DNA of 64,000 bases, from positions 3,658,001 through 3,722,000 of the forward strand of contig NZ_CP046444.1 in the NCBI RefSeq assembly GCF_014083945.1, written 5' to 3'. Below, one piece after another: positions 1,386 through 53,622 of this stretch. The notes under the pieces are model-generated. The model saw only the letters and a list, made by a program, of their open reading frames with translations, was not told where the DNA came from and searched no databases. The translations under genes and the position numbers were made by a program. Numbering within the stretch: position 1 is the stretch's first letter; the number at the start of each line of letters is the position of its first letter. Source of the stretch: Granulicella sp. 5B5 (GTDB lineage Bacteria > Acidobacteriota > Terriglobia > Terriglobales > Acidobacteriaceae).

Positions 1386-2234
1386 CTACGCCACGTGTCC
1401 CTTCGGCTTTCGCGTCAGCAGATACACCATCCCGATCACGATCAGCAGCGTCACCATCCCCGCAATCCCCAGTATCCGCACCACCGACACCGAGTACTTG
1501 CCCGCCGTCGGGCTATAGTTGCAGCAGTACAGGATCAGTAGGTCCACCGGGTTGCTGATCTTCTTCTCGCTCGCATCCAGCAGCGCCATCCGCAGGTCGC
1601 GCGGCTCATAGCTCACCCCAGCCAGGTACTTCGACATCTTCCCATCCGGCGTCGCGAACATAATCACGCTGGAATGAGCATACTGGTCCATCTTCCCATC
1701 CGGCCCCGGCACCATCACAAAGTGAAACCCCGTAGCATCGCTCAACGCATCGATCGAAGCCTTCGGCGCAGTCAGAAAATGCACAGCATCCGCCTGCCCG
1801 GTCATCCCGGCCTCGTTCAAAAACTGCTGTTTCTGCCCCACAGCATCCTGCGGTGTGTCCGTCGGATCGATGCTGAACACCATCACGTCGTAGTCTTTGC
1901 CCGCAGTCAGCGTCGTGGCTTTCAGCCCGGTCGCCAGCCCATGCAGCACCTGCGGGCACAGCATCGCGCACTTGTAATACACCATCGCCATCACCACTGG
2001 CTTGCCGTCGTACCAGGTAGAAAGCGCCCCCGTCTTTCCCGTCGAGTCCGTAAACGTCGCCGCCATTGGCAGCGTCTGCCCAAGCTTCTGCTCGATCCCC
2101 GCATGCTTCAGATACGCCGGCGGTGCCTGCGCCGTCGCCCCTAGCGGCTTATCAGCCGAGTACCCCTGCGCCCCCATCACTCCCGCGCCTACCCCCAGCA
2201 TCAACGCCATGCAGCCAACAGCAACAACTCGCAT
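1386..2234 (-). CDS. SCO1/SenC family copper chaperone / thioredoxin-like protein
   Basis: Probable membrane-attached, periplasm-facing protein that delivers copper to, or reduces, the CuA site of cytochrome c oxidase. Visible features are an N-terminal signal or anchor (residues 1-22, ending MGAQG), a thioredoxin-like fold with the metal-binding CxxxC motif (YKCAMLCPQ), and the conserved third ligand His in QYAHSS. A C-terminal transmembrane helix (ILGIAGMVTLLIVIGMVYLL) is followed by a basic tail. The C-terminal helix is typical of SCO proteins encoded with cox genes in this phylum, but no cox genes are visible here. It is divergent from hemC, with about 130 bases between the starts. The family call is strong; the exact partner is inferred. 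Confidence 0.9.
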   Translation of the reverse strand: MRVVAVGCMALMLGVGAGVMGAQGYSADKPLGATAQAPPAYLKHAGIEQKLGQTLPMAATFTDSTGKTGALSTWYDGKPVVMAMVYYKCAMLCPQVLHGLATGLKATTLTAGKDYDVMVFSIDPTDTPQDAVGQKQQFLNEAGMTGQADAVHFLTAPKASIDALSDATGFHFVMVPGPDGKMDQYAHSSVIMFATPDGKMSKYLAGVSYEPRDLRMALLDASEKKISNPVDLLILYCCNYSPTAGKYSVSVVRILGIAGMVTLLIVIGMVYLLTRKPKGHVA

Positions 2235-2362: not shown

Positions 2363-3382
2363 GTGACTGTGAGCACATCCACCATACGCATCGGTTCGCG
2401 CGGCTCGCAGCTCGCGCTCTGGCAGGCCAACCACATCGCCGATCAACTTCGCGCCAACGGCCACACCGTCGAGATCGAGGTCATCCGCACCGTCGGCGAC
2501 CGCATGCAGGACCCGCAGTTCGTCGCCCCCTCCACCTTCCCCGACGGCACGCCACTCGACTCCAAAGGCATCTTCATCAAGGAGATCGAAGACGCCCTCC
2601 TCGACGGCCGTGTCGACCTCGCCGTGCACTCGCTCAAAGACCTCCCCACCACGCTTGACCCCCGCTTCACCCTAGCCGCCATCCCACCGCGCGCCGATGC
2701 CCGCGACGCCTTCGTCTGCGAAGACCACTGGGGACTGCACATGCTCCCCTCCGGCGCCCGCGTTGCCACCACCAGCCCGCGCCGCCAGGCCATGATCCTC
2801 GCCCTCCGCCCGGACATCCAGTTCGTCCAGATGCGCGGCAACATCGACACCCGCCTCCGCAAGTGGGAGGAAGGCCAGTGCGACGCGCTTATCCTCGCCT
2901 CCGCCGGCCTCGACCGCCTCGGCCGCACCCAGCACGTCCACCAGCGCTTCTCCATCGACGAACTCACCCCCGCCCCCGGCCAGGGAGCCCTCGCCCTCGA
3001 AACTCGATGTCCTCACGCTTTGAAGGGGACGGGCTTCAGCCCGTCCGTTGCATCAGGGCAGAGGGAAGGGGCTTTAGCCCCGGAGGCTCTCAACGAGGCC
3101 ATCCGCGCCCTCAACTGTTGCGCCACCGAGTACGCCGTCACCGCCGAACGCGCCGTCCTCGACGCCCTCGGCGGCGGCTGCCAGCTTCCTCTCGGCGCTT
3201 ACTGCCACGCCTCCGACGACCAGTGGCATCTCCATGCGATGGTCGTCTCTCCCGACGGCGAACAGATTGCCCACATCATCCAGCGGGCTCCCATCGGCAT
3301 CGCCGCCACCGACCTCGGCCACTCCGTCGCCGAAGCCCTCAAGGCCCGCGGCGCCCTCGATCTCCTCCAGCAGACCGCATAG
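2363..3382 (+). CDS. hemC: Hydroxymethylbilane synthase (porphobilinogen deaminase) with an in-frame repeat insertion
   Basis: Polymerises four porphobilinogen molecules into hydroxymethylbilane. The family start motif IRIGSRGSQLALWQA follows two in-frame GTG codons (2363 and 2369). The long ATG-initiated reading frame upstream is antisense to the SCO1 gene and is not used. Substrate and cofactor signatures are visible: KGIFIKEIEDALL, DLAVHSLKDLPT, RRQAM and MRGNIDTRL. The dipyrromethane-binding cysteine is in GGGCQLPLG. Between the PGQGALALETR strand and the LNEAIRALN helix, where the family normally has only a few residues, this protein carries about 25 extra residues encoded by a dispersed palindromic repeat (see that entry). 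No Shine-Dalgarno is obvious. Confidence 0.95.
   Translation: MTVSTSTIRIGSRGSQLALWQANHIADQLRANGHTVEIEVIRTVGDRMQDPQFVAPSTFPDGTPLDSKGIFIKEIEDALLDGRVDLAVHSLKDLPTTLDPRFTLAAIPPRADARDAFVCEDHWGLHMLPSGARVATTSPRRQAMILALRPDIQFVQMRGNIDTRLRKWEEGQCDALILASAGLDRLGRTQHVHQRFSIDELTPAPGQGALALETRCPHALKGTGFSPSVASGQREGALAPEALNEAIRALNCCATEYAVTAERAVLDALGGGCQLPLGAYCHASDDQWHLHAMVVSPDGEQIAHIIQRAPIGIAATDLGHSVAEALKARGALDLLQQTA
3017..3087 (+). repeat. In-frame palindromic element, family R1, inside hemC
   Basis: Two short inverted repeats are visible: GACGGGCTTCAGCCCGTC and GGGGCTTTAGCCCC followed by GGAGG. They are separated by about 20 variable bases and preceded by GCTTTGAAGGG. The same arrangement occurs in the DUF2252 gene, in hemD and upstream of the inositol-phosphate synthase gene. 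In hemC it is read as ALKGTGFSPS ... GALAPEA without a stop or frame change. Confidence 0.85.
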
Positions 3383-5141: not shown

Positions 5142-8015
5142 TTACTCCACCGTCAGTCTGACAGTGGTTACATGCTGCAAGGAGGCGCCATTCGCGCCGG
5201 TAGCGGTTCCGAAAATCTGGATCGTGTAGGTATTCTGCGGCTCGCCAAAGAATCCGGAGTTCGAGCCGCAACCGGAGAGTGCCGCCATCGAGCCGAGGCC
5301 GAGGACGCTCACCACCAGCATCAGGAGCAACTTGAGCTGTCGGCTGCGTCTGCGCTGCTTCGTCGTAAACGGCAGCAGCAGCAACAGAGCAAGCATCGTT
5401 TCGCCCAGTGGTCCCAGATGCTTGAATTTCCGCAGGGCGGCTGACGTTTCTGCCGTTTGGACGGTCATGGTGAACATAACCGGCGAGCTTTCGAGTGTCA
5501 CTGCAGAGGGGTTGAAGCTGACCGTGGCTCCCGGAGGCAGGCCGGTGGCCGAAAGCGTAATCGGGAAGGTGAACGGTCCGTTCAGAGGTGCTACGGTGAA
5601 CGGGAACGTCACAGAATCACCCGGGTTCACGGTCTGGCTCGCGTTTCCGCTGTTAGCAATCGTGAAGTTGAAGTCGCCGACCAGTTGCGTCAACGTGGCG
5701 GACGTACTCGTGCTGAAGTTGTCGTTGCCTGTGTACTCGGCTGTGATGGCATAGCTCCCAGCGGTCGCAAAACTCGTTGTGATCGAGCCGGAACCACCGC
5801 TGAGGGGCTCTGTCCCAAGCGATGTACCGTTGGCATAGAACGTGACGGTTCCGTTCGGGACGGCCGTGCCCACGGTAGGAGCCACGGTAGCCGTAAAGGT
5901 GATGGGCTCGTTGACGAACAGCGCCGCCATGCTTGAGATGAGAGTCACATCGGTTGTCGCCTGAACGCCGGTGCCTGTCAGCAGGACCATCTGCGTCACC
6001 ACACCAGAGCCGCTTAAGGCGATGCTGCCTGAAGCCGCGCCTGCGGCCGTGGGCCTAAAGGCGATGTCCTGAGTGCAACTAGCGCCGGCGGCAAGCGTGA
6101 TTGGGGCGTCTGAGCAGGTCCCCCCGGGAGCCAACGTGAAGGGGCCACTTAGCGTTGGAGCGGCGACGGTCAGGGGGCCGGAACCGGTGTTGCCCAGCGT
6201 GATGGACTGAGCTGCTGTGGTGAGCCCGACGGAAGAGGAACCGAAGGCAAGTGCCGGCTCACCACCCATCCGGATGCGGTCGTTCAGGCTATCGGCGATG
6301 GCGAGGTTTCCGGCTGCGTCCGTCGCCGTGTCGGTGGGCTCGTTCAGGGCCGTTGCCGTAGCTGCATTGCCGTCGGCGTCGAAGCCCTGCTGGCCGTCGC
6401 CTTCCACGGTGGCGATGGTCCCGGCAGTGACCTCGCGGACGCGCTGGTTGTTGGTGTCGGCAATGTAGACGTTGCCCGCGGCGTCGACGCTTACGCCGGT
6501 CGGCTTGCTCAGGCTTGCGGCTGTGGCGTTTGCGCCGTCGCCTGCGTAGCCTCCGGCGAAGGTGACGGGACCGCTGCCCGCGAGGGTGGCGATCGTTCCG
6601 CCCGAGACCTCGCGGATGCGCTGGTTATGGCGGTCGGCGATGTAGACGTTCCCTGCGCTGTCGACCGCGATGCCTGTGGGTGTGTCCAGCGTGGCGCTGG
6701 TAGCTGCGCCTCCGTCTCCGGCGTAGTTCTGCTCCCCAGTTCCGGCGAGGGTAGTGATCGTTCCGCCCGAGACCTTGCGGATGCGCTGGTTGTCCGTATC
6801 GGCAATGTAGAGGCTGCCGCTCGCATCGACCGCGACCGAGCTGGGCAGGTCGAGCTCGGCGCTGGTGGCTGCGCTGCCGTCGCCCGAGAAGCCTGCCGTT
6901 CCGTTGCCCGCGACCGTGGTGATCGTTCCGCCGGAGACCTCGCGGATGCGCTGGTTGTGGCTGTCGGCGATGTAGAGGTTACCGCTCGTGTCGACTGCGA
7001 TGCCAGTCGGCGTGTCGAGTTGAGCAGAGATTGCGGCGCCGCCATCTCCGGAAAAACCCGCGATGCCGTTGCCGGCTACCGTGGTAATCGCGCCGTTGCT
7101 CTTTGCGACTTCGCGAATGACGTGATTACTTGTGTCGGCAATGAAAAGATTGCCTTGTGCGTCATAGGCGACAGCACTGGGAGACGCGAGCGTGGCGGAT
7201 GCGGCCGGGCCACTGTCACCGCTGTAGCCTACCTGCCCGGTTCCGGCTGTTGTGGTGACCGTTTGCGAAGGCGTAACCGTCAGAATGCCCTGCGCGCTGG
7301 CGGCAAGGGAGCCGGCGAAGAAGAGTGTTCCCCCTATTCCTCCCGCTTTCTTCAAAGTCTTCAGAAGAAAGCGGCTGAAGAGCAACTTCCGCGAGGAAAC
7401 CAGCGCAGTTTCCTGATCTCCCAGAATATTGGAGGCTGAATCCTGATCAGGAGGGAGTTGTATGCGGGCCTCAGGCCATGGAACCTCTTTCTTCGCTTCC
7501 ATGGGGAAAGACGTGTCAAACGCCATACGGATCGGATACCAGGACATCTCGATATCCAGCGAATCTTCGGCGACCGTCTGGAATCCCACGCGTCCATAGA
7601 GGGCAAGGGCCGCAAGGTTGGTTTTCTGAACGCGCAGGTCGAGCCTGCGGCCGTCCTGACACGCGCGTTCCTGCAGATGAAGGAGCGCCGCTGTGGCAAG
7701 ACCCTGACGGCGGTATTCACTCAAAACCGCGAGGTCGACGATGCGTAGCGAACCGGGAGCCGGAGCAACGAGCAGGCATCCCGCCGCCGTTTCCCCGTCG
7801 TGCAGCAGGATGTACTCAACGGCATCCGGATACCGCTGGGAGTAGGTGAGTTGGCGGCCGCGGAACTGCATGTCCTGAAACAGGGCGACCTGTTGCGGCG
7901 GAAGACCCGGCAAGCGCGTGGCCGTCTCCGCGAAGAGGCGGCGAAGGAAGGCAGTGTCAGAAACACTGCCTTCACGCAGGAAGCGGGTTGCGCCGAATTG
8001 TTGAGGTGCGGCCAT
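5142..8015 (-). CDS. GNAT acetyltransferase fused to a secreted NHL-repeat / Ig-like protein
   Basis: Residues about 10-160 form a GNAT domain with an acetyl-CoA loop RRQGLA. A linker and a Sec-like hydrophobic segment follow (LLFSRFLLKTLKK ... LFFAGSLAASAQG, about 211-242). After it come six NHL repeats (AGDGGAATSA..L..P.GIAVD..GN.YIAD..NQRIREV; the last one degenerate), a choice-of-anchor/HYDIN-like domain (ALAFGSSSVGLTTAAQSITL), an Ig-like repeat and a C-terminal module of hydrophobic segment, basic cluster, second hydrophobic segment with SGCG, and final strand. A cytosolic enzyme upstream of an internal signal sequence suggests two genes joined by loss of a stop, or an annotation-level fusion. 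The ATG at the start of the GNAT part is preferred over one 33 codons upstream, which would overlap the tail-collar gene. GNAT genes next to tail-collar genes are a known arrangement. Confidence 0.75.
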   Translation of the reverse strand: MAAPQQFGATRFLREGSVSDTAFLRRLFAETATRLPGLPPQQVALFQDMQFRGRQLTYSQRYPDAVEYILLHDGETAAGCLLVAPAPGSLRIVDLAVLSEYRRQGLATAALLHLQERACQDGRRLDLRVQKTNLAALALYGRVGFQTVAEDSLDIEMSWYPIRMAFDTSFPMEAKKEVPWPEARIQLPPDQDSASNILGDQETALVSSRKLLFSRFLLKTLKKAGGIGGTLFFAGSLAASAQGILTVTPSQTVTTTAGTGQVGYSGDSGPAASATLASPSAVAYDAQGNLFIADTSNHVIREVAKSNGAITTVAGNGIAGFSGDGGAAISAQLDTPTGIAVDTSGNLYIADSHNQRIREVSGGTITTVAGNGTAGFSGDGSAATSAELDLPSSVAVDASGSLYIADTDNQRIRKVSGGTITTLAGTGEQNYAGDGGAATSATLDTPTGIAVDSAGNVYIADRHNQRIREVSGGTIATLAGSGPVTFAGGYAGDGANATAASLSKPTGVSVDAAGNVYIADTNNQRVREVTAGTIATVEGDGQQGFDADGNAATATALNEPTDTATDAAGNLAIADSLNDRIRMGGEPALAFGSSSVGLTTAAQSITLGNTGSGPLTVAAPTLSGPFTLAPGGTCSDAPITLAAGASCTQDIAFRPTAAGAASGSIALSGSGVVTQMVLLTGTGVQATTDVTLISSMAALFVNEPITFTATVAPTVGTAVPNGTVTFYANGTSLGTEPLSGGSGSITTSFATAGSYAITAEYTGNDNFSTSTSATLTQLVGDFNFTIANSGNASQTVNPGDSVTFPFTVAPLNGPFTFPITLSATGLPPGATVSFNPSAVTLESSPVMFTMTVQTAETSAALRKFKHLGPLGETMLALLLLLPFTTKQRRRSRQLKLLLMLVVSVLGLGSMAALSGCGSNSGFFGEPQNTYTIQIFGTATGANGASLQHVTTVRLTVE

Positions 8016-8826: not shown

Positions 8827-10458
8827 TTATGTGGGCGAGCCGCCAAAGTAGACATACCAGTGGTGGTTTCCATCACTGATGAGGTCAATGGCGTTAAATT
8901 CCAGCACTGAAGTCTGAGGAGCGTTCCCCAATCCAAGCCAGGGATCATAGATCACATCGCCAGAGGCGGCGTTCACGGTGAATCCGCTCGAACTGGAGGA
9001 TTGATAGGGATCGACGATCTTGATTTCCTGCCCCGCGAGAGTAGCCGGAGGCAGGGTGAGGCTCATGGGGTCCGTCGCCGTCACGTAGGAAACTTTCGTC
9101 GAAGAGGACGAAAGCATGGTGCCATCGGCGATGGTCCCGCCCCATGGCGACAGATTACTACCTGTGCCATCGACGCCCGCCTGGCCGGTGGAACCGGTAG
9201 CACCGATGGCACCGGTGCTACCGGAAGGACCTGTAGCTCCTGTTGCCCCCGTCACGCTTATGCCATCGGCACCTGTAGCGCCGGTGGCTCCCTGCGGGAG
9301 GAGAATGGTCCAGTAGGCGCTATTGGTGGGAAGAACAGCGGAAAACGGGCTCGCCTGGATGGCGTAATAGAGCTGGTTGTTATAGAGAACGACGTCGGCC
9401 CCAGAATAGGTGACGGAACCGTCATAGGAGCCCATGTAGGTCATGCCCGTGGCGCCCGTAGCCCCCGTGGCACCCGTAGCTCCCGTGCTTCCCACCGCTC
9501 CCGTGCTCCCCGTCGAGCCCTCTATGCCTGTAGCCCCCGTGGCACCTGTCATACCCGTCGCGCCCGTCACACCCGTGGCTCCTGTGCTCCCTGTAGAGCC
9601 CACGATTCCAGTAGCGCCCTGCGAACCTGTCATACCTGTGGCACCGGTGGCTCCCGTCACGCCGACAGCGCCGGTGGTACCCGTCGCGCCGGTTACACCC
9701 GCAATGCCAGTGGTTCCTTGCGCGCCCGTAGCACCCGTAGCACCTACGGCCCCCGTGACACCTGCAACGCCAGTAGCCCCTGTGACACCCGCAACGCCCG
9801 GCGCACCCTGATTTCCCTGTGCGCCTGTGGCTCCCGGTAAACCCGGAATCCCCTGCGAACCTGTAGCGCCCATAGCTCCCGTGGCTCCGGTCGCGCCCAT
9901 CGAGGTGATGGTCACGTTGAGATCGGCCTGGTGGCTGGTCTGGTCATTTTCCTTACTGTCGAAGACGGCGCTGGCTCCGGAAGACGAGGACAGGGCGATG
10001 CCGTGGTTGGTGCCGGGGTTCGTGACCCAGCCCTGGACGAGGCTGGTGACATCCAGCGTGATGAAGACGCCCGACGCTCCCGGCGAAAACGTCGTGAGGG
10101 CGGAGCCGATGCTGGGCGAATTGTCGTAGGTGATGCCGGACTCGGTCCAGGCCGACGTTACGGGCGAAACCGCGATCTGGCCGGTGGACGTGATGCGGTT
10201 GACGAAGAGCGTCACCGTGGCCTTGGACACCTGGCTGGCCGTAATGCCCGCAGGCAGGCCGGAGAGATCGAACTGGATGAAGGTCGTGCTGTTGCTGTCC
10301 ACGTACAGGTTGGACAGGTAACCGAAGTTCGCATTGGGCCGCAGGGCGCTGGTGTTCGCATCGGCAGTGAGGGCGAGATCGGCACCATGTGCGACGGCTA
10401 CAGCGAACAATGACGCGCCCAGAATGGAAAGCAGGCGAAACGCGGCAGAAGGTTTCAA
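8827..10458 (-). CDS. Secreted collagen-like (Gly-X-Thr repeat) protein with an N-terminal DNRLRE-like domain
   Basis: A signal peptide ([21 protein letters not shown]) leads into a DNRLRE-like beta-sandwich of about 155 residues ([34 protein letters not shown]). About 50 Gly-X-Y triplets follow, dominated by GAT, GVT and GST, so Thr and not Pro fills the Y position. Next is a CBM5/12-like segment ([23 protein letters not shown]), a few more triplets and a C-terminal beta domain ending [10 protein letters not shown]. Thr-rich collagen stalks occur in bacterial surface filaments such as spore hairs, so an extracellular stalk with a binding head is likely. The TTG start gives MKPSAAF with AGGGA about 9 bases upstream; a GTG three codons earlier is the alternative. 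A promoter-like pair lies about 160 bases upstream. Confidence 0.8.
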
Positions 10459-14357: not shown

Positions 14358-15433
14358 ACGGCCTCCGAACGGCGAAAGATGAAGGTGCGCTGGATGGAGA
14401 AGCTGACCAGGCTGAGCGCGGATTCGACCAGCACTTTGGCGAGGAAGACGTTCCAGCCGAGCCGGTACGTGAGCGCATAGATCAAGCCGTAGCTCAGGCA
14501 CGCAATCACAGCCACCAGCGCATAGTAGCGCCAGATAGCGGCAGTGACCGGGCCCCGGTTGCGGAAGACGAAGCGGCGGTTCAGGGTGAAGTTGACCAGC
14601 GAACTGAGTCGGCCCGTGGCAACGCTGACGGCCAGGTTTTGCGTGGCGGCAAAGGCAATGCTGAAGCCGGCGAAGTCAACTGCCGCAGCCAGCAGTGACG
14701 AGAGATAGAAGCGCGCCAGCACGAAGTAGATGCGCATCGAATCCCACACCGGATTGAAGTGGGACGAGCGATTGGCGTCGATGTAAACCGTGCGGATAGG
14801 CACCTGCAGGGGTTTGGAGCCATCGCGGCAAAGATGCGCGAGCACGGTCATCTCGTACTCGTACCGTTCGCCGTCGAGCGTCATCAGGCCGGACAGAGCC
14901 GTTGGCGGAAGCCCGCGCAGGCCGGTCTGCGTGTCGGCGAGTCTGACCCCGGTGACGAACGTGAAGATGGAACGCGTGAGCGTATTGCCCAGACGGCTGC
15001 GGAAGGGCACATCGCCTGAAAAAGCGCGCACGCCGAGCACAGGACGGCCTGCGCTGAGAACGAGCGCGCGGGCAACGCTGAGAATGTCTTCGACGGTGTG
15101 CTGGCCGTCGGCATCGGCGGTGACGACGCCGAGGAGATCGGGGCGATGGAGCAGCAGGTGATTGAAGCCGGTCTTGAGGGCGCGGCCTTTGCCAAGGTTT
15201 ACAGCGTGGCGAAGGACGGTGACGCCGGTTCGCGCAAGTTGGTCGAACAGAGGCTGGAGGTCGGGGTCGCTGCCGTCGTCGACGACCAGAACATGGCCGA
15301 TGCCGGCAGCACGGAGAGCTTCCGCGAGCGTCGGAAGAATGGGCGCGGGCTGCCATGCTGGAATGAGCACGGCGATACGGCGCAGCGAATCGGGCTCCGG
15401 CGGAATTTGCAAGGACATGGGCATGGACAGCAT
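14354..15433 (-). CDS. GT2 glycosyltransferase (dolichol-phosphate-mannose-synthase-like) fused to a GtrA domain
   Basis: Residues about 18-235 form a GT2 catalytic domain (VLIPAWQPAPILPTLAEAL, VVDDGSDP, GKGRALKTGFN, TADADGQH as the DXD-like site). From about 240 to 359 come four transmembrane helices of the GtrA/flippase type (LAAAVDFAGFSIAFAATQN, LSSLVNFTLNRRFVFRNR, ending SFSIQRTFIFRR). It would attach a sugar to a polyprenyl phosphate at the cytoplasmic face, and the GtrA part could flip it for the adjoining GT87 enzyme. The order GT2-GtrA then GT87 with a GTGA overlap supports a donor-plus-transferase pair modifying surface polysaccharide or protein. Start codons at residues 1, 4 and 6 are all possible. 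Confidence 0.88.
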   Translation of the reverse strand: MLSMPMSLQIPPEPDSLRRIAVLIPAWQPAPILPTLAEALRAAGIGHVLVVDDGSDPDLQPLFDQLARTGVTVLRHAVNLGKGRALKTGFNHLLLHRPDLLGVVTADADGQHTVEDILSVARALVLSAGRPVLGVRAFSGDVPFRSRLGNTLTRSIFTFVTGVRLADTQTGLRGLPPTALSGLMTLDGERYEYEMTVLAHLCRDGSKPLQVPIRTVYIDANRSSHFNPVWDSMRIYFVLARFYLSSLLAAAVDFAGFSIAFAATQNLAVSVATGRLSSLVNFTLNRRFVFRNRGPVTAAIWRYYALVAVIACLSYGLIYALTYRLGWNVFLAKVLVESALSLVSFSIQRTFIFRRSEAV

Positions 15434-26200: not shown

Positions 26201-27703
26201 ATGTCCACGCTCACCCCGCCATTGCCGCCCTCCGAGCGCGCCGCCCTCGGCCACGCCGCCCGCAAGCAGCTCGGGCGCCGCGCCCACGCCTCCATCGACA
26301 TTCATGCCGCCGCGCACGACCCCATAGCGCTCCTCCGCGCCTCGGAAAAAGACCGCATTCAGTCTCTCGTCGCCATCAAGCATGAGCGCATGACCGAGAG
26401 CTGTTTCAGCTTCTACCGGGGAGCTGTGCCTATCATGGCCTTCGACCTCGCCGCCCAACCCAACACCGGCCTCATCACCCAGCTCTGCGGCGACGCCCAC
26501 ATCTCCAACCTCGGTGCCTTCTCCGCACCGGCCGCAGGCCTCTCAAAGGGAATCGCAGGCGGCCTCACCTTCGACATCAACGACTTCGACGAGACCATCC
26601 GCGGCCCCTTCGAGTTCGACGTCAAGCGCCTCGCCACCAGCCTTATCCTCGGCGGCCGCGAAGCCGGCATCAAGCTCGCCGCGCGCCACAAAGCCGTCTC
26701 GCACTTCCTCGCCCGCTATCGCGAGCACATGCACACCTTCGCCGAACTTCCCATCCTCGAACTCGCCCGCTATCAGATCCACCGCCTCGCCCACATAGAC
26801 CCCATGCCCGCCATCCTCGCGCAGGCCGAGCGCTCCACCGTCGACAAGACCTTAAAATCCCTCACCGAGTCCACCAGCAAGAGCGCGAAGAACAACAAGG
26901 CATCGAACGCCAAAGCTTTGAAAGGGACAGGCGATACCCAGGTACCCCAAGGCTTCAGCCTTGGGTCTCATAAACAGGCAAGTAAGAAAGGGGTTTTAAC
27001 CCCGGAGGGAGCAGCCGACCGCCACTTCCGTTCCGACCCGCCACTCCTCCGCCGCATCACCGGCAAAGAAGCCGACAACGTCCTCGCCTCCCTCGGCCCT
27101 TACTCGCGGACACTGCAACCTGAGCGCCGCCACTTCCTCGACAAGTACCGCCCCATTGACGTCGGTTTCAAAGTCGTCGGCACTGGCTCCGTCGGTTGGC
27201 ACGACTACGTCATCTACCTTGAAGGCACGCACGACTGCAAGTCCGACCCGCTCTTCCTGCAGGTCAAGGAGGAGACCGCCTCCGCCTACGCGCCCTATCT
27301 GCCTGAAGGCTCGCAGCACACCCACAACGGTCACCGTGTGATGGACGGCCAGCGCGCCATGCAGCTCACCAGCGACCCCTTCCTCGGCTACACCACCATC
27401 GAAGGCCGCGACTACCTCGTCCGCCAGCTTAACGACCACAAGGCATCCATCGACCTCACCACTCTCACTGCGGACTCGCTGCTCGGTTACGCCGATCTCT
27501 GCGGCGAGCTCTTCGCCCGCGGCCACGCTCGCGCCGGAGACCCCGTCGCCATCGCCGCCTACCTCGGCAAGAACTGCCGCTTCGACGACGCCATCCTCAG
27601 CTTCGCCCACAACTACGCCGACCAGACCGAGCGCTACTGGGACCTCTTCAAAAAGTCCCTCAAGCCCGCAAGCCCACGCCGCAAGTCTCAACGCAAAGGC
27701 TAA
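26201..27703 (+). CDS. DUF2252 family protein with in-frame repeat insertion
   Basis: A 500-residue protein of a family distantly related to kinase-fold proteins. Typical motifs are visible: HERMTESCFSFYRGA, LCGDAHISNLGAF, FDINDFDETIRGPFEFDVKRLA, VGTGSVGWHDYV and RDYLVRQLNDHKAS. The function is unknown. Between the AQAERSTVDKTLKSLTE helix and the DRHFRSDPPLLRRI segment it carries about 33 residues encoded by an R1 palindromic element (ALKGTG ... GVLTPEG). The ATG has GCAGGAG 10 bases upstream; longer upstream frames read through the R3 repeat and are rejected. Confidence 0.88.
   Translation: MSTLTPPLPPSERAALGHAARKQLGRRAHASIDIHAAAHDPIALLRASEKDRIQSLVAIKHERMTESCFSFYRGAVPIMAFDLAAQPNTGLITQLCGDAHISNLGAFSAPAAGLSKGIAGGLTFDINDFDETIRGPFEFDVKRLATSLILGGREAGIKLAARHKAVSHFLARYREHMHTFAELPILELARYQIHRLAHIDPMPAILAQAERSTVDKTLKSLTESTSKSAKNNKASNAKALKGTGDTQVPQGFSLGSHKQASKKGVLTPEGAADRHFRSDPPLLRRITGKEADNVLASLGPYSRTLQPERRHFLDKYRPIDVGFKVVGTGSVGWHDYVIYLEGTHDCKSDPLFLQVKEETASAYAPYLPEGSQHTHNGHRVMDGQRAMQLTSDPFLGYTTIEGRDYLVRQLNDHKASIDLTTLTADSLLGYADLCGELFARGHARAGDPVAIAAYLGKNCRFDDAILSFAHNYADQTERYWDLFKKSLKPASPRRKSQRKG
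26915..27013 (+). repeat. In-frame palindromic element, family R1, inside the DUF2252 gene
   Basis: Begins GCTTTGAAAGGGACAGG. A first stem CCCAAGGCTTCAGCCTTGGG follows, then a variable A-rich spacer and a second stem GGGGTTTTAACCCC followed by GGAGGGAGC. Its start, end and reading frame are the same as in the hemC and hemD copies. Confidence 0.8.
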
Positions 27704-28346: not shown

Positions 28347-28391
28347 CCACAACCTATAGTCTTGCCCCGCCTCTGACCACAAGCTATAGTC
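28347..28391 (+). promoter_or_regulatory. Paired NrdR-like boxes upstream of nrdA
   Basis: CCACAACCTATAGTC and CCACAAGCTATAGTC lie exactly 30 bases apart. Each matches about 11-12 of the 16 positions of the NrdR consensus (acaCwAtATaTwGtgt), and the near-three-turn spacing is that of known paired NrdR boxes. They lie immediately upstream of the riboswitch. Confidence 0.65.
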
Positions 28392-28399
28392 GTTTTATT

Positions 28400-28575
28400 C
28401 CACGGTCTCCTCTCGCAAGAGTGGAGTGAAAAGGGAATCTGGTGAAACTCCGGAACTGCCCCGCAGCGGTAAGCAGGTACGAACGCCCTAACTGAAGACA
28501 CTGGTTGGACAAACCGGGAAGTCAGGGTCATTAGGTCCGAACCTGCAGAGTCCGAAGACCTGCCATGGAAACATC
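28400..28575 (+). promoter_or_regulatory. Cobalamin (adenosylcobalamin) riboswitch upstream of nrdA
   Basis: The conserved core is readable: GGGAATCTGGTGAAACTCC, GGAACTGCCCCGCAGCGGTAA, and the B12-box GTCCGAAGACCTGCC near the 3' end, with the intervening pairing elements in the right order. About 110 bases separate it from the nrdA ATG, where CACACGCCTCCGAGGGGAGG-like sequence can form an expression-platform helix. B12 riboswitches in front of class I ribonucleotide reductases are known to shut them off when B12 allows the class II enzyme to work. Confidence 0.93.
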
Positions 28576-28686
28576 GCACACGCCTCCGAGGGGAGGCGAG
28601 GTGACAGCTTCCCTCTGTCCTCCGCACAGCACGCGCGGCGGTCGCTGTCTCTTCGCACACACTCTGAGGCCTGGGAGGAACCACCC

Positions 28687-41292: not shown

Positions 41293-42165
41293 GTGTCACA
41301 ACGAGTCCTAGTAACTCGCGCCCCGCACCAGGCCTCGGCCCTCGCCGAAGCCCTCCGCGCTCGCGGCCTCGAACCCATCCTCATCCCCACCATCGAGATC
41401 GCCTCACCCACCACCTCCGCCCCCCTCGACGCCGCCCTCGCCAGCCTCCCCACCTTCCACTGGATCATCTTCACCAGCACCAATGCGGTGGAGTCCTTCT
41501 TCCAACGCCTCGCGGCTTTGAAGGGGACGGGCTTCAGCCCGTCCGGAGAGAGCGGGGGCCTTCAGGCCCCTGAATCCAACCCTGCAAGCAGGGGGGCTTC
41601 AGCCCCGGAGGGAGCCAAGTTGACGGCATCCCTCCGCATCGCCGCTATCGGCCCCGCCACCGCCCGAGCCCTCGAACCATTCGGTATAAAACCCACTCTC
41701 GTCCCTCCACAAGCTGTCGCTGAGTCCCTCGCCGCCGCGCTCACCCCCTACGCCAAACAGCCCGACGGCACCGCAACCCGCTTCCTCATCCCCCGCGCCG
41801 AAGCCGCTCGAGACATCCTCCCCGAAGCCCTCACAGCCGCCGGAGCCGATGTCACCCTCGCCCCTGTCTACCGCAACATCATTCCCGCCGACTCCATCCC
41901 GGCCATCCGTGAGCTCTTCTCAACATCAGCCACTTACCCCAAAGCCGTCACCTTCACTAGTGGTTCTACCGTCAACAATCTAATTGCTTTACTCAATGCA
42001 GCCAGTCTCACTCTACCCCCAGCTCCGCTCCGCATCTCCATCGGTCCCATCACCTCAGCCGTGCTCCGCGGCCACGGCCTGCCGCCCCACGCCGAAGCCG
42101 ATCAGCCCACCATTCCTGCTCTTGTGGAAAAGGTGTCCGCCGCTCTTCTTCACATAAAGTCTTAG
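41293..42165 (+). CDS. hemD: Uroporphyrinogen-III synthase with in-frame repeat insertion
   Basis: Cyclises hydroxymethylbilane to uroporphyrinogen III. A 290-residue two-lobed protein: RVLVTRAPHQASALAEAL, PTIEIASP and FHWIIFTSTNAVESFFQRL in lobe 1; IAAIGPATARALEPFGI, AVTFTSGSTVNNLIALL and RISIGPITSAVLRGHGL in lobe 2. About 34 extra residues (ALKGTGFSPS ... GASAPEGA) encoded by an R1 palindromic element lie in the loop between the FFQRLA helix and LRIAAIGPATA. The GTG start aligns with the family start; an ATG 15 codons upstream reads through the R3 repeat. It is far from hemC and hemA in this window. Confidence 0.93.
   Translation: MSQRVLVTRAPHQASALAEALRARGLEPILIPTIEIASPTTSAPLDAALASLPTFHWIIFTSTNAVESFFQRLAALKGTGFSPSGESGGLQAPESNPASRGASAPEGAKLTASLRIAAIGPATARALEPFGIKPTLVPPQAVAESLAAALTPYAKQPDGTATRFLIPRAEAARDILPEALTAAGADVTLAPVYRNIIPADSIPAIRELFSTSATYPKAVTFTSGSTVNNLIALLNAASLTLPPAPLRISIGPITSAVLRGHGLPPHAEADQPTIPALVEKVSAALLHIKS
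41515..41616 (+). repeat. In-frame palindromic element, family R1, inside hemD
   Basis: GCTTTGAAGGGGACGGGCTT begins the copy. Three stems are visible: GACGGGCTTCAGCCCGTC, GGGGCCTTCAGGCCCC and GGGGGCTTCAGCCCC, the last followed by GGAGGGAGCC. The 102 bases are a whole number of codons and contain no stop in the hemD frame. Confidence 0.85.
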
Positions 42166-44601: not shown

Positions 44602-44634
44602 CAAAACCGTCGCTACCTCCTGTACAAGCGTTTG

Positions 44635-44704
44635 TTTTGAAGGGGCGGGACTTCAGTCCCGCCGTCACTCGACCGCGCATCGGAACGGCTTTAGCCGCGG
44701 AGGG
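44635..44704 (+). repeat. Palindromic element, family R1, intergenic copy
   Basis: GTTTTGAAGGGGCGGGACTT begins the copy; stems GGCGGGACTTCAGTCCCGCC and CGGCTTTAGCCG, followed by CGGAGG. It lies between the DedA and inositol-phosphate synthase genes, oriented like the in-gene copies. Confidence 0.8.
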
Positions 44705-44828
44705 CGAGGACTCCCAACACCGCTAACCGAACGCCCAAGCGGCGTCTTGCACCTGCATAGCGCGGTGAGCGATACTGACTTGTCCGCACAAACCGGAGAA
44801 TTTGTTCTTAGAAGGGTACGCCCAGAAA

Positions 44829-51567: not shown

Positions 51568-53622
51568 GTGTCCGCGCGCCAACTCGCCATCGCCATCACG
51601 CTCCTCATCGCGGCTCGCCTCTACGCACAAGTCACACCCAGCTCCATCCTGCTGCCCACCGGCATGGCCTACGACACCGCCGGCAACCTCTACTTCACCG
51701 ACGCCAACCGCCACCAGGTCTTCGAGTCCACCCTCGGAGGCCAGCTCCTCCTCATCGCCGGCACCGGCACACAAGGCTACGCTGGCGACAACGGCCCAGC
51801 AACATCAGCCCAGCTCAACAGTCCGCAGGCGCTCACCATCGCCACCAACGGCACGCTCTACATCGCGGACACCGGCAACAACGTCGTCCGTGCCATCACG
51901 AACGGCACCATCACCACCCTCGCTGGAACCGGCAAACCCGGCTACTCCGGCGACAGCGGCCCCGCAACATCGGCCCAGCTCGATGCACCAAACGCACTTA
52001 CCCTCGACTCCACCGGCGCACTGCTAGTCTGCGACTCCGCCAATAACCGCATTCGCCGTATCGACATAACCGGTACCATCACTACCATCGCTGGCACCGG
52101 CATCCAGGGCTTCTCGGGCGACAACGGCCCCGCCACCGCCGCTCAGTTCGACACGCCCTCTGGCATCGCCACCGCCAACGGCGTGATCTACATCGCCGAC
52201 ACGCACAACCACCGCATCCGCATCATCGACTCCAGCGGCACCATCACCACCCTCGCCGGAACCGGCAAACCCGGCTACTTCGGCGACAACGGCCTCGCCA
52301 CCTCAGCTCAGCTCAACTCGCCACGCGGCCTCGCGCTTACCGCCACCGGCGCGCTCCTCATCGCCGACGCCAACAACCAGCGCATCCGCTCCATCTCCGC
52401 CACCGGCACCATCACAACCCTCGCCGGAGGCCCAACGCAAGGCACGACAACAGATGGCACAACCGCTCTCTCTGCCAATCTCAACACACCTCGAGCCGTT
52501 GCTATCTCCCCTTTCGGCTACTCCATCCTGGCCGACGCACCGAACCACACACTCCGCATCCTCGTCACCAACGGCGATCTCTACCTTCCTGCAGCCTTCG
52601 CACCAACCCGCACCACCGCGGTCACGTTCATCGCCGCTGGTACCGCAACCGTCACCGGCATCTCCACACCGCAAGGTGCCGTACAACTCACCATCGACGG
52701 CACCCCCGGCCCAACCGCGACTCTGGCTTCCGGAGCCGCAACCTTCTCGCTCCCCGCTGGAGCTCACACCATCACCGCCACCTACACCGGCGACGGCCTC
52801 AACCCCGCTGCCACCAGCTCAGCCATCACGCTCTCCGCTGGCAAAGCCGCCGCCACCGTCATCATGCAGCCACCATCTCCCAACGACTACGCAGGCATGC
52901 CTCTGCTGCTTAACGCCAATGTCACAGCCCCCACCGGCGGCACACCAACCGGCACGGTTACGTTTCTCGAAGGCCCTACCACCATTGCTACTGCCCAACT
53001 CACCGCAGGCATTGCCAGCGGAGTCTATCTTGCTCCCACCGCGGGCAGCCACACCATCGTCGCCTCCTACCTCGGCGACGCGAACTTCGCGCCAGGTAGC
53101 GCCCCCCCAATCACAGCGATCGTCAAGCCGATACCCGACTTCACGATCGCCACAACCGGCACCACCAACCAAACCGCTGCAGCAGGCGCCATCGCCACCT
53201 ACAACCTGAACATCACCCCCCAAAATGGCGCCTTTACCGGGGCCGTGTCCCTCGCTGTCAGCGGTCTTCCCTTCGGCGCTACAGCCAGCTTCGCTCCGCC
53301 GCAAGTTGTTCCAGGGGCCTCCGTCGCAGCCACAACACTCAGTGTGCAGACCCTTGCGCAACCTATCGCGCATCTTGCCACGCACACCACCGCGCCCTAT
53401 GCACTACTGTTCCTGCCGCTGATCTTCCTTAGGCGCAAATCGCGACGTTTGCTCCTCCCGCTACTTCCACTCGTGCTGTTTATCTCCGGTTGCGGAGACC
53501 GAGTCAACCAGCCGCCAACTCCAGCCGCAGGAATCTACACGCTCACTGTCAGCGCCACTGGAACGAATCTCGCGGGTATTCTCGTCGTCCACACCACTAC
53601 AGTCACTCTGACGATTGAATGA
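51568..53622 (+). CDS. Secreted NHL-repeat / Ig-like protein with C-terminal SGCG module
   Basis: A 684-residue protein. A signal peptide (RQLAIAITLLIAARLYAQ) precedes five to six NHL repeats of the AGTGKPGYSGDSGPATSAQL type, then two Ig-like domains (GAVQLTIDGTPGPTATLASG; GTVTFLEGPTTIATAQL) and a DFTIATTGTTNQTAAAGA domain. The C-terminal module is YALLFLPLIFL, RRKSRR, LLLPLLPLVLFISGCG, and the final strand GILVVHTTTVTLTIE. The same module ends the GNAT-NHL protein, so the two are paralogues of the secreted half. The GTG start has GAGGAGG 5 bases upstream. It is likely envelope-anchored or surface-displayed; the ligand is unknown. Confidence 0.85.
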   Translation: MSARQLAIAITLLIAARLYAQVTPSSILLPTGMAYDTAGNLYFTDANRHQVFESTLGGQLLLIAGTGTQGYAGDNGPATSAQLNSPQALTIATNGTLYIADTGNNVVRAITNGTITTLAGTGKPGYSGDSGPATSAQLDAPNALTLDSTGALLVCDSANNRIRRIDITGTITTIAGTGIQGFSGDNGPATAAQFDTPSGIATANGVIYIADTHNHRIRIIDSSGTITTLAGTGKPGYFGDNGLATSAQLNSPRGLALTATGALLIADANNQRIRSISATGTITTLAGGPTQGTTTDGTTALSANLNTPRAVAISPFGYSILADAPNHTLRILVTNGDLYLPAAFAPTRTTAVTFIAAGTATVTGISTPQGAVQLTIDGTPGPTATLASGAATFSLPAGAHTITATYTGDGLNPAATSSAITLSAGKAAATVIMQPPSPNDYAGMPLLLNANVTAPTGGTPTGTVTFLEGPTTIATAQLTAGIASGVYLAPTAGSHTIVASYLGDANFAPGSAPPITAIVKPIPDFTIATTGTTNQTAAAGAIATYNLNITPQNGAFTGAVSLAVSGLPFGATASFAPPQVVPGASVAATTLSVQTLAQPIAHLATHTTAPYALLFLPLIFLRRKSRRLLLPLLPLVLFISGCGDRVNQPPTPAAGIYTLTVSATGTNLAGILVVHTTTVTLTIE

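Follow-up and report, generated by a model that had tools for sequence, protein, structure and literature searches.

Gene hemC (porphobilinogen deaminase, 339 aa; 2363..3382, + strand) carries within its reading frame a palindromic segment that recurs elsewhere in the genome. This raises the question of how such a segment came to be read as part of a conserved enzyme, and whether it was kept for the peptide it adds. The gene lies in a window of 64,000 nucleotides, by which the whole stretch of DNA analysed here is meant.

The element in hemC and its distribution

Sequence and translation confirmed what a preliminary description had proposed, namely a palindromic element inserted in frame in hemC. 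It is a dispersed, 72-nt unit with two hairpins (3017-3088, + strand, head type A), composed of GCTTTGAAGGGGACGGGCTTCAGCCCGTCC, a spacer and GGGGCTTTAGCCCCGGAGG. Its in-frame translation is ALKGTGFSPSVASGQREGALAPEA, and the peptide stretch of the HemC insert reads ALKGTGFSPSVASGQR. R1, a covariance model of the element built in this analysis, matched it over the full length (77.3 bits, E 1.2e-18). The head hairpin, GGACGGGC-TTCA-GCCCGTCC, has an 8 bp stem and the loop TTCA (3027..3046, +). A 21 nt spacer (3047..3067, +), unconserved in the alignment of copies, separates it from a tail hairpin with a 5 bp stem, GGGGC-TTTA-GCCCC, followed by the foot GGAGG (3068..3086, +).

The whole element family follows this plan, in which the two hairpins, head and tail, are conserved and the spacer between them, about 20 nt long, is not. 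Spacers among the copies of this genome were of near-fixed length and displayed a median pairwise identity of only 0.38. Both stems covaried: in the copy alignment, for which 37 of the 46 strict-pattern copies (see below) were used, 96.9% of the stem cells were paired, and 42 cells displayed two-sided changes against 11.4 in shuffles, none of 500 shuffles reaching as high a value. Taken as single-stranded DNA, the bottom strand of 3017-3087 folded into both hairpins (z -2.68). Consensus feet of the hairpins were GAAGG and GGAGG, the GTAG foot being absent. Within the window, the element found no match in Rfam at the gathering threshold; the sole Rfam match there was a cobalamin riboswitch (28386-28581, 114.7 bits).

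The further proposal that the segment is dispersed, mobile palindromic DNA was borne out by its abundance. The strict pattern TGAAGGGGNNGGGCTTCAGCCC, with at most 2 mismatches, occurred at 46 places in the genome (3.93 Mb, single contig) and its reversed control at none. A covariance-model search of genomes, suggested earlier as a check, returned at least 129 R1 matches in this genome at E<=0.01 and at least 140 at E<=0.1; these totals are lower bounds, 150 of about 1,900 candidates having been scored, and weak matches include elements with other heads. R1 matches (E<=0.01) were recorded in 24 of 28 Granulicella genomes, the present one included, and their number per related genome ranged from 0 to 135. 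Of 31 genomes searched with the strict pattern, 11 contained it, this one among them, and every one of these is a Granulicella; it was absent from the 12 genomes that represent six further genera of the order.

Three other copies lie in the window. Two of them are composites that mix modules of heads A, B and C, and occur in the genes hemD and DUF2252, for which copies of the same orientation and frame had been announced; both indeed lie in sense direction and start in the ALKGT frame. In hemD (uroporphyrinogen-III synthase; 41293..42165, +), whose PF02602 domain (residues 16-279) spans the insert, the composite element (41515..41613, +) consists of head A, an extra, third hairpin of type B (41555-41570) and the tail (41593-41613). 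The copy in the DUF2252 gene (26201..27703, +; PF10009, E 2.1e-109) is broken up by another head hairpin. It extends over 26915..27010 (+; R1 38.7 bits), with the start of head A, a type C head (26938-26970) and a tail hairpin, and reads in frame ALKGTGDTQVPQGFSLGSHKQASKKGVLTPEG. The fourth copy (44634..44705, +; R1 72 bits) lies between called genes. The window further contains, in two genes on opposite strands, repeats of about 165 nt (6400-7071 and 51755-52427) that resemble each other after reverse-complementing one of the two, and a coding repeat with a 9-nt period (9443-9793) inside the called gene 8827-10410.

The HemC insert is flanked by the two Pfam domains of the enzyme (PF01379, residues 8-215; PF03900, residues 258-327), and its presence among relatives is restricted. 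The preliminary description had set a derived insertion against a segment conserved in all acidobacterial HemC, and had suggested an alignment to separate the two. Among the 26 genus genomes in which the loop was covered, only two displayed the insert, this one (G000) and G. paludicola (G015), as expected of a derived insertion; in the same survey the fragment from G007 ended before the loop and one genome of the 28 gave no match. In a wider HemC alignment (45 of 80 loci), the element appeared in the printed loop region only at L096, which is the same record as G015 and was counted once (L118 is a fragment). The loop is short in distant Acidobacteriota, in agreement with the earlier claim of about 25 extra residues where the family has only a few, but this claim did not hold within the genus, where the loop is not short. 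Own HemC has 339 residues versus 327 in the closest relative (+12) and 330 in many others (+9), so that the element took the place of part of the loop sequence. In G. paludicola (L096 / L197), the same loop contains the element together with a second repeat, translated CHPERSAAESKDL.

In HemC, the inserts of G000 and G015 occupy the same place, with 13 of 21 spacer positions identical, a level reached by 1.5% of own-copy pairs; in the tree, G000 joins G014, with G015 outside. One ancestral insertion in hemC, subsequently lost in G014, is likely, though not proved, and is favoured over two. The loop around the insert also differs, and an exact empty site in hemC could not be defined. According to the predicted model (mean pLDDT 89.8; 61 for residues 221-230 and 74 for residues 231-240), the HemC fold would be intact and the insert would form a poorly ordered loop. 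The GGCQLP region is unchanged and C273 is invariant in the alignment; we take these to represent the cofactor cysteine region.

HemD carries the element in G000 and G009 (R1 match inside the G009 gene). Other inserts occupy this loop in G014 (head C-like and tail-like pieces among them), G015 and G001, and what may be a decayed copy is present in G033. The alignment covered 26 genomes; in its remaining rows the loop is shorter, apart from two that carry no information (G002, mis-framed, and G036, a fragment). Both the HemC and the HemD loops also accept other repeats.

Association with transposase genes

The element is associated with genes of REP-associated tyrosine transposases (RAYTs). The 30 of 56 relative-search rows that had loci, from 28 genomes including the present one, were inspected for R1 matches around the RAYT gene. 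Inverted matches occurred on both sides at 17 of these loci, on one side at nine and on neither at four, i.e. at least one side was matched at 26 of 30; L031, with no match, was left out of this count. Ends were inverted on both sides at all seven RAYTs displaying at least 54% identity to the query RAYT from G015, a set that includes the query itself, one 44-residue fragment and one RAYT with weak matches (21-22 bits).

A complete-looking unit was found in G. paludicola (L080). Its ends lie at 1497-1569 (+) and 2004-2074 (-), with the head outermost at both, and the gene of a tyrosine transposase stands between them. Its 156 codons used include the reading MPDHIHLLL, presumably the HUH motif. 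This head-A transposase scored 24.9 against PF01797 (cut-off 23) and 72.2 with the NCBIfam model REP_Tyr_transpos (NF047646), below the 80-bit cut-off that L032 and L033 exceeded. The latter two belong to the present genome, which has three Y1 transposases, one IS200-like and these two of the REP-associated family. A protein search of the own genome did not find a close relative of the head-A transposase, the best identity being 45% (L032), with L033 at 35%.

RAYT L032 has ends with head B on both sides, and RAYT L033 adjoins hairpins of a third head, C. Heads A, B and C are followed by a similar tail, although the tail test for head C was loose: a tail-like hairpin was present at 25 of 30 places with type C heads (without control), and one of these 25, at L350, turned out to be the head that belongs to an adjacent type A copy. 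The best explanation as a whole, which we consider likely, is that the hemC element is the end of a RAYT transposon whose tail also occurs with other heads. Mobilisation would have taken place within the own genome, where the two RAYTs lie near ends with other heads. Inverted pairs of ends with only a short stretch between them were also encountered, at 930017/930162 and 1054174/1054418 in G002:C1 and at 15353/15499 in G033:C14. They are perhaps remnants of transposons without transposase gene.

Orientation, host genes and a possible route of insertion

Element orientation is coupled to local GC skew. Seventy own copies were examined, taken from the 72 best R1 matches (3657569 and the partial 112374 were left out) and including a few composites or copies with another head. 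In all 70, the head-to-tail strand was the locally C-rich one, i.e. GC skew was negative on the element strand. Likewise, 35 of 37 single-orientation copies in other genomes (n=21) lay on the C-rich strand, the remaining two having skews of 0.000 and +0.009; several copies in G002, G009, G032 and G033 displayed weak skew (0 to -0.09). This second count considered 45 of 56 matches, after removal of four same-place duplicates and seven weak matches (one of which, in L215, was on the opposite strand), and eight of the 45, in loci with both orientations, were set apart; L215 and L220 each contributed three neighbouring copies, which are not independent. Elements were concentrated in strongly skewed DNA, the median absolute skew being 0.271 at elements versus 0.143 at 860 regular places.

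Along the chromosome, stretches of strong GC skew, positive in some and negative in others, form a mosaic with stretches of little skew. In the window, skew stayed at about -0.2 to -0.4 throughout some 26 kb (16000-42000) regardless of gene strand, and this stretch borders others with skew near zero or positive. Gene strand was rejected as the cause of the skew since skew at codon position 3 tracks the stretch and not the gene strand. Gene dnaA lies at 2.14 Mb. Among the stretches sampled around it, 1.80-1.82 Mb had negative skew, 2.00-2.02 and 2.40-2.42 Mb had positive skew, and 2.20-2.22 Mb gave a mixed picture; an origin near dnaA, with a G-rich leading strand, is plausible. One of the chromosome halves set by dnaA contained 33 + and 3 - copies and the other 19 + and 15 -. 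A simple replichore cause of the orientation was rejected because it fails on this second half: chromosome halves explain orientation in part, local skew all of it.

The strand lock extends to other sequences. Of 34 matches to type C heads, the 30 with loci were examined, and 29 of them shared one orientation; the single exception lies beside RAYT L033, as does one place where skew is near zero. These heads are not independent of the element family, given the tail-like hairpin that the loose test detected at 25 of 30. A repeat of the form TCGACCGGAGC ... GGAGAGACCTG lay on the C-rich strand at all 30 examined places (30 of 75 matches had loci). Since this repeat, without recognised kinship to the element, has the same lock, the cause of the lock may be broader than RAYT action. 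Its four occurrences in the window (26034, 34123, 41195 and 47943) all point in the same direction.

A preference of the transposon for certain targets could produce such a lock if the insertion target were common only on C-rich strands, and a slight pyrimidine preference was in fact observed just upstream of the element. Yet, a two-pyrimidine target, as estimated from base frequencies, would have a strand preference of less than 2-fold, too little for 70/70, and no stronger target motif was found in 37 copies; we consider this explanation improbable. Similarly unlikely is a role of the element as functional RNA or as a polar motif that organises the chromosome, with an orientation kept by selection and an incidental presence in genes. 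Compensatory changes in both stems and the full orientation bias of the 70 copies agree with a function of this kind, but the inverted ends flanking transposase genes, match numbers between 0 and 135 in related genomes, the occurrence of both sense and antisense copies inside genes, and a bias that tracks local skew rather than chromosome half all argue against it.

Genes are strongly avoided by the element. When gene calls were made with a simple, uncurated codon-usage script, 13 of 70 copies lay 60 bases or more within a called gene and 57 did not, whereas coding DNA made up about 79% of 20 sampled stretches (p 5e-27). In the count of in-frame copies that had been suggested as a further check, 11 of the 13 were sense and two antisense (UvrA and MurD). 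Nine of the 11 sense copies shared the codon phase of the hemC copy, eight reading LKGTG, and two, in an asparaginase and an ABC transporter gene, were in another phase. Neither strand bias (p 0.15) nor frame bias (p 0.065) was significant with so few copies. Host genes also include those of a MiaB-type protein, a GH20 enzyme, an M20 peptidase and QueA (two copies). A Pfam match was obtained for the genes of 11 of the 13 intragenic copies (L022 had none and L256 was unscanned), and the parallel drawn with Rickettsia palindromic elements holds for these in-frame copies in Pfam-matched genes.

The idea of one stop-free frame and one orientation in genes, by contrast, found no support, given the two antisense copies, the two copies in another phase and the lack of significance of both biases. 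The common orientation is real relative to local strand composition but not to genes. These same observations bear on the suggestion that the peptide was selected, the element then serving as a coding module that enzymes acquired in a favoured frame. The codon phase common to nine of 11 sense copies and the fact that HemC, HemD, QueA (two copies) and the MiaB-type gene represent conserved enzymes can be quoted in its favour. Besides the exceptions in strand and phase and the non-significant biases, it is opposed by the frequency of intragenic copies, about four times rarer than coding DNA, by the different inserts found in the same HemD loop of G014, G015 and G001, and by hairpins that are equally conserved between and inside genes; we regard it as very improbable. 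In-frame insertion looks tolerated rather than selected, and since genes are so strongly avoided, the intragenic copies look like the surviving, tolerable remainder.

The explanation preferred here is that the hemC insert is probably a solo end of a RAYT-type (HUH, Y1) transposon, scattered as single strands and tolerated in genes. One transposon end would correspond to a REP-like unit that measures about 72 nt and combines a head hairpin particular to its family with a spacer of free sequence and with a tail of shared type. In full units elsewhere in the genus, two such ends, inverted relative to each other, enclose the gene of a small tyrosine transposase. Acting on single-stranded DNA, the transposase would have scattered solo ends, probably at the replication fork. 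Insertion coupled to the fork would give all ends the same orientation with respect to replication, of which the C-rich strand is the present-day trace, and later inversions would have moved skew and elements together. Such inversions are needed by the fork model because orientation is mixed on one of the halves set by dnaA. Further points that count against the explanation are the four RAYT loci with no R1 match, the failure to find a close head-A transposase in this genome, the missing GTAG foot, the lack of an exact empty site in hemC, the weak skew at several copies in G002, G009, G032 and G033, and the strand lock of the repeat without recognised kinship. Most insertions in genes would have been lost, and those in frame and stop-free in tolerant loops, as in HemC and HemD, would have been kept as passenger peptides, presumably neutral ones.

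A more far-reaching version can be put forward only tentatively. It assumes that insertion occurs solely as single strands, at the fork and on one template, with orientation as a near-perfect fossil of fork direction that later inversions left intact along with local GC skew. It also assumes a superfamily of mosaic ends, with various heads and a single kind of tail, that shares this rule and occasionally adds peptides to essential enzymes. It is weakened by the change of skew near dnaA, which is not neat, and by the unrelated repeat with the same lock.

Place among known elements

The kind of element is already known from RAYT/REP systems and intragenic REPs; what is described here is a well supported family in an unusual place. 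REPtrons, formed by REPs and RAYTs, share with the Granulicella family the HUH Y1 gene, the inverted flanking palindromic repeats and the many dispersed copies (PMC2817692, PMC8266576). Granulicella ends differ from them by a length of about 72 nt, two hairpins, the absence of a GTAG foot and a similar tail combined with different heads; REP classes without GTAG have been described (PMC6006769). REPINs are likewise short, mobile palindromic DNA with a less conserved spacer and a proposed RAYT dependence (PMC3116915). Yet, a REPIN consists of two inverted REPs, whereas the hairpins of the Granulicella element are different and non-inverted and together form one transposon end. HUH Y1 chemistry is also shared with IS200/IS605 elements, such as IS608 and ISDra2, for which insertion into the lagging-strand template would fix orientation (PMC6006769). 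In contrast to these, Granulicella ends were found solo and dispersed and not as whole insertion sequences.

Closest by description are the TIRYTs and their TIRtrons, with RAYT-like genes and longer, sometimes double-palindromic inverted repeats (PMC3733652). An acidobacterial TIRYT group was reported in 2013 from T. saanensis, K. versatilis, A. capsulatum and G. mallensis (gma794), and in K. versatilis one of the TIRs is a member of a repeated family (PMC3733652). The Granulicella family possibly corresponds to this same group, a likeness drawn from the description and not from sequence. In its available parts, the TIRYT description names no dispersed Granulicella family, strand lock or acidobacterial intragenic copies, and REPs inside genes of other phyla, uvrA among them, were already described there (PMC3733652). 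Among the literature matches listed (titles and abstract starts, with few subscription journals), no description of the Granulicella family or of its strand lock was found. The preliminary description knew of no account of such a family in Acidobacteria; a RAYT-like acidobacterial group is on record (PMC3733652). Rickettsia palindromic elements, compared by description, share the presence of in-frame palindromic repeats in conserved proteins (PMC3733652); the Granulicella element differs in having an identified transposase partner and in that genes are a minority site.

The spread of REPs is still poorly understood (PMC8266576). With units composed of transposase and ends, solo copies and a 70/70 strand bias, the Granulicella family makes a single-strand, fork-coupled route directly testable. 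It also provides clear cases in which mobile DNA adds sequence to HemC, HemD and MurD, usually regarded as essential enzymes, while their domains stay recognisable.
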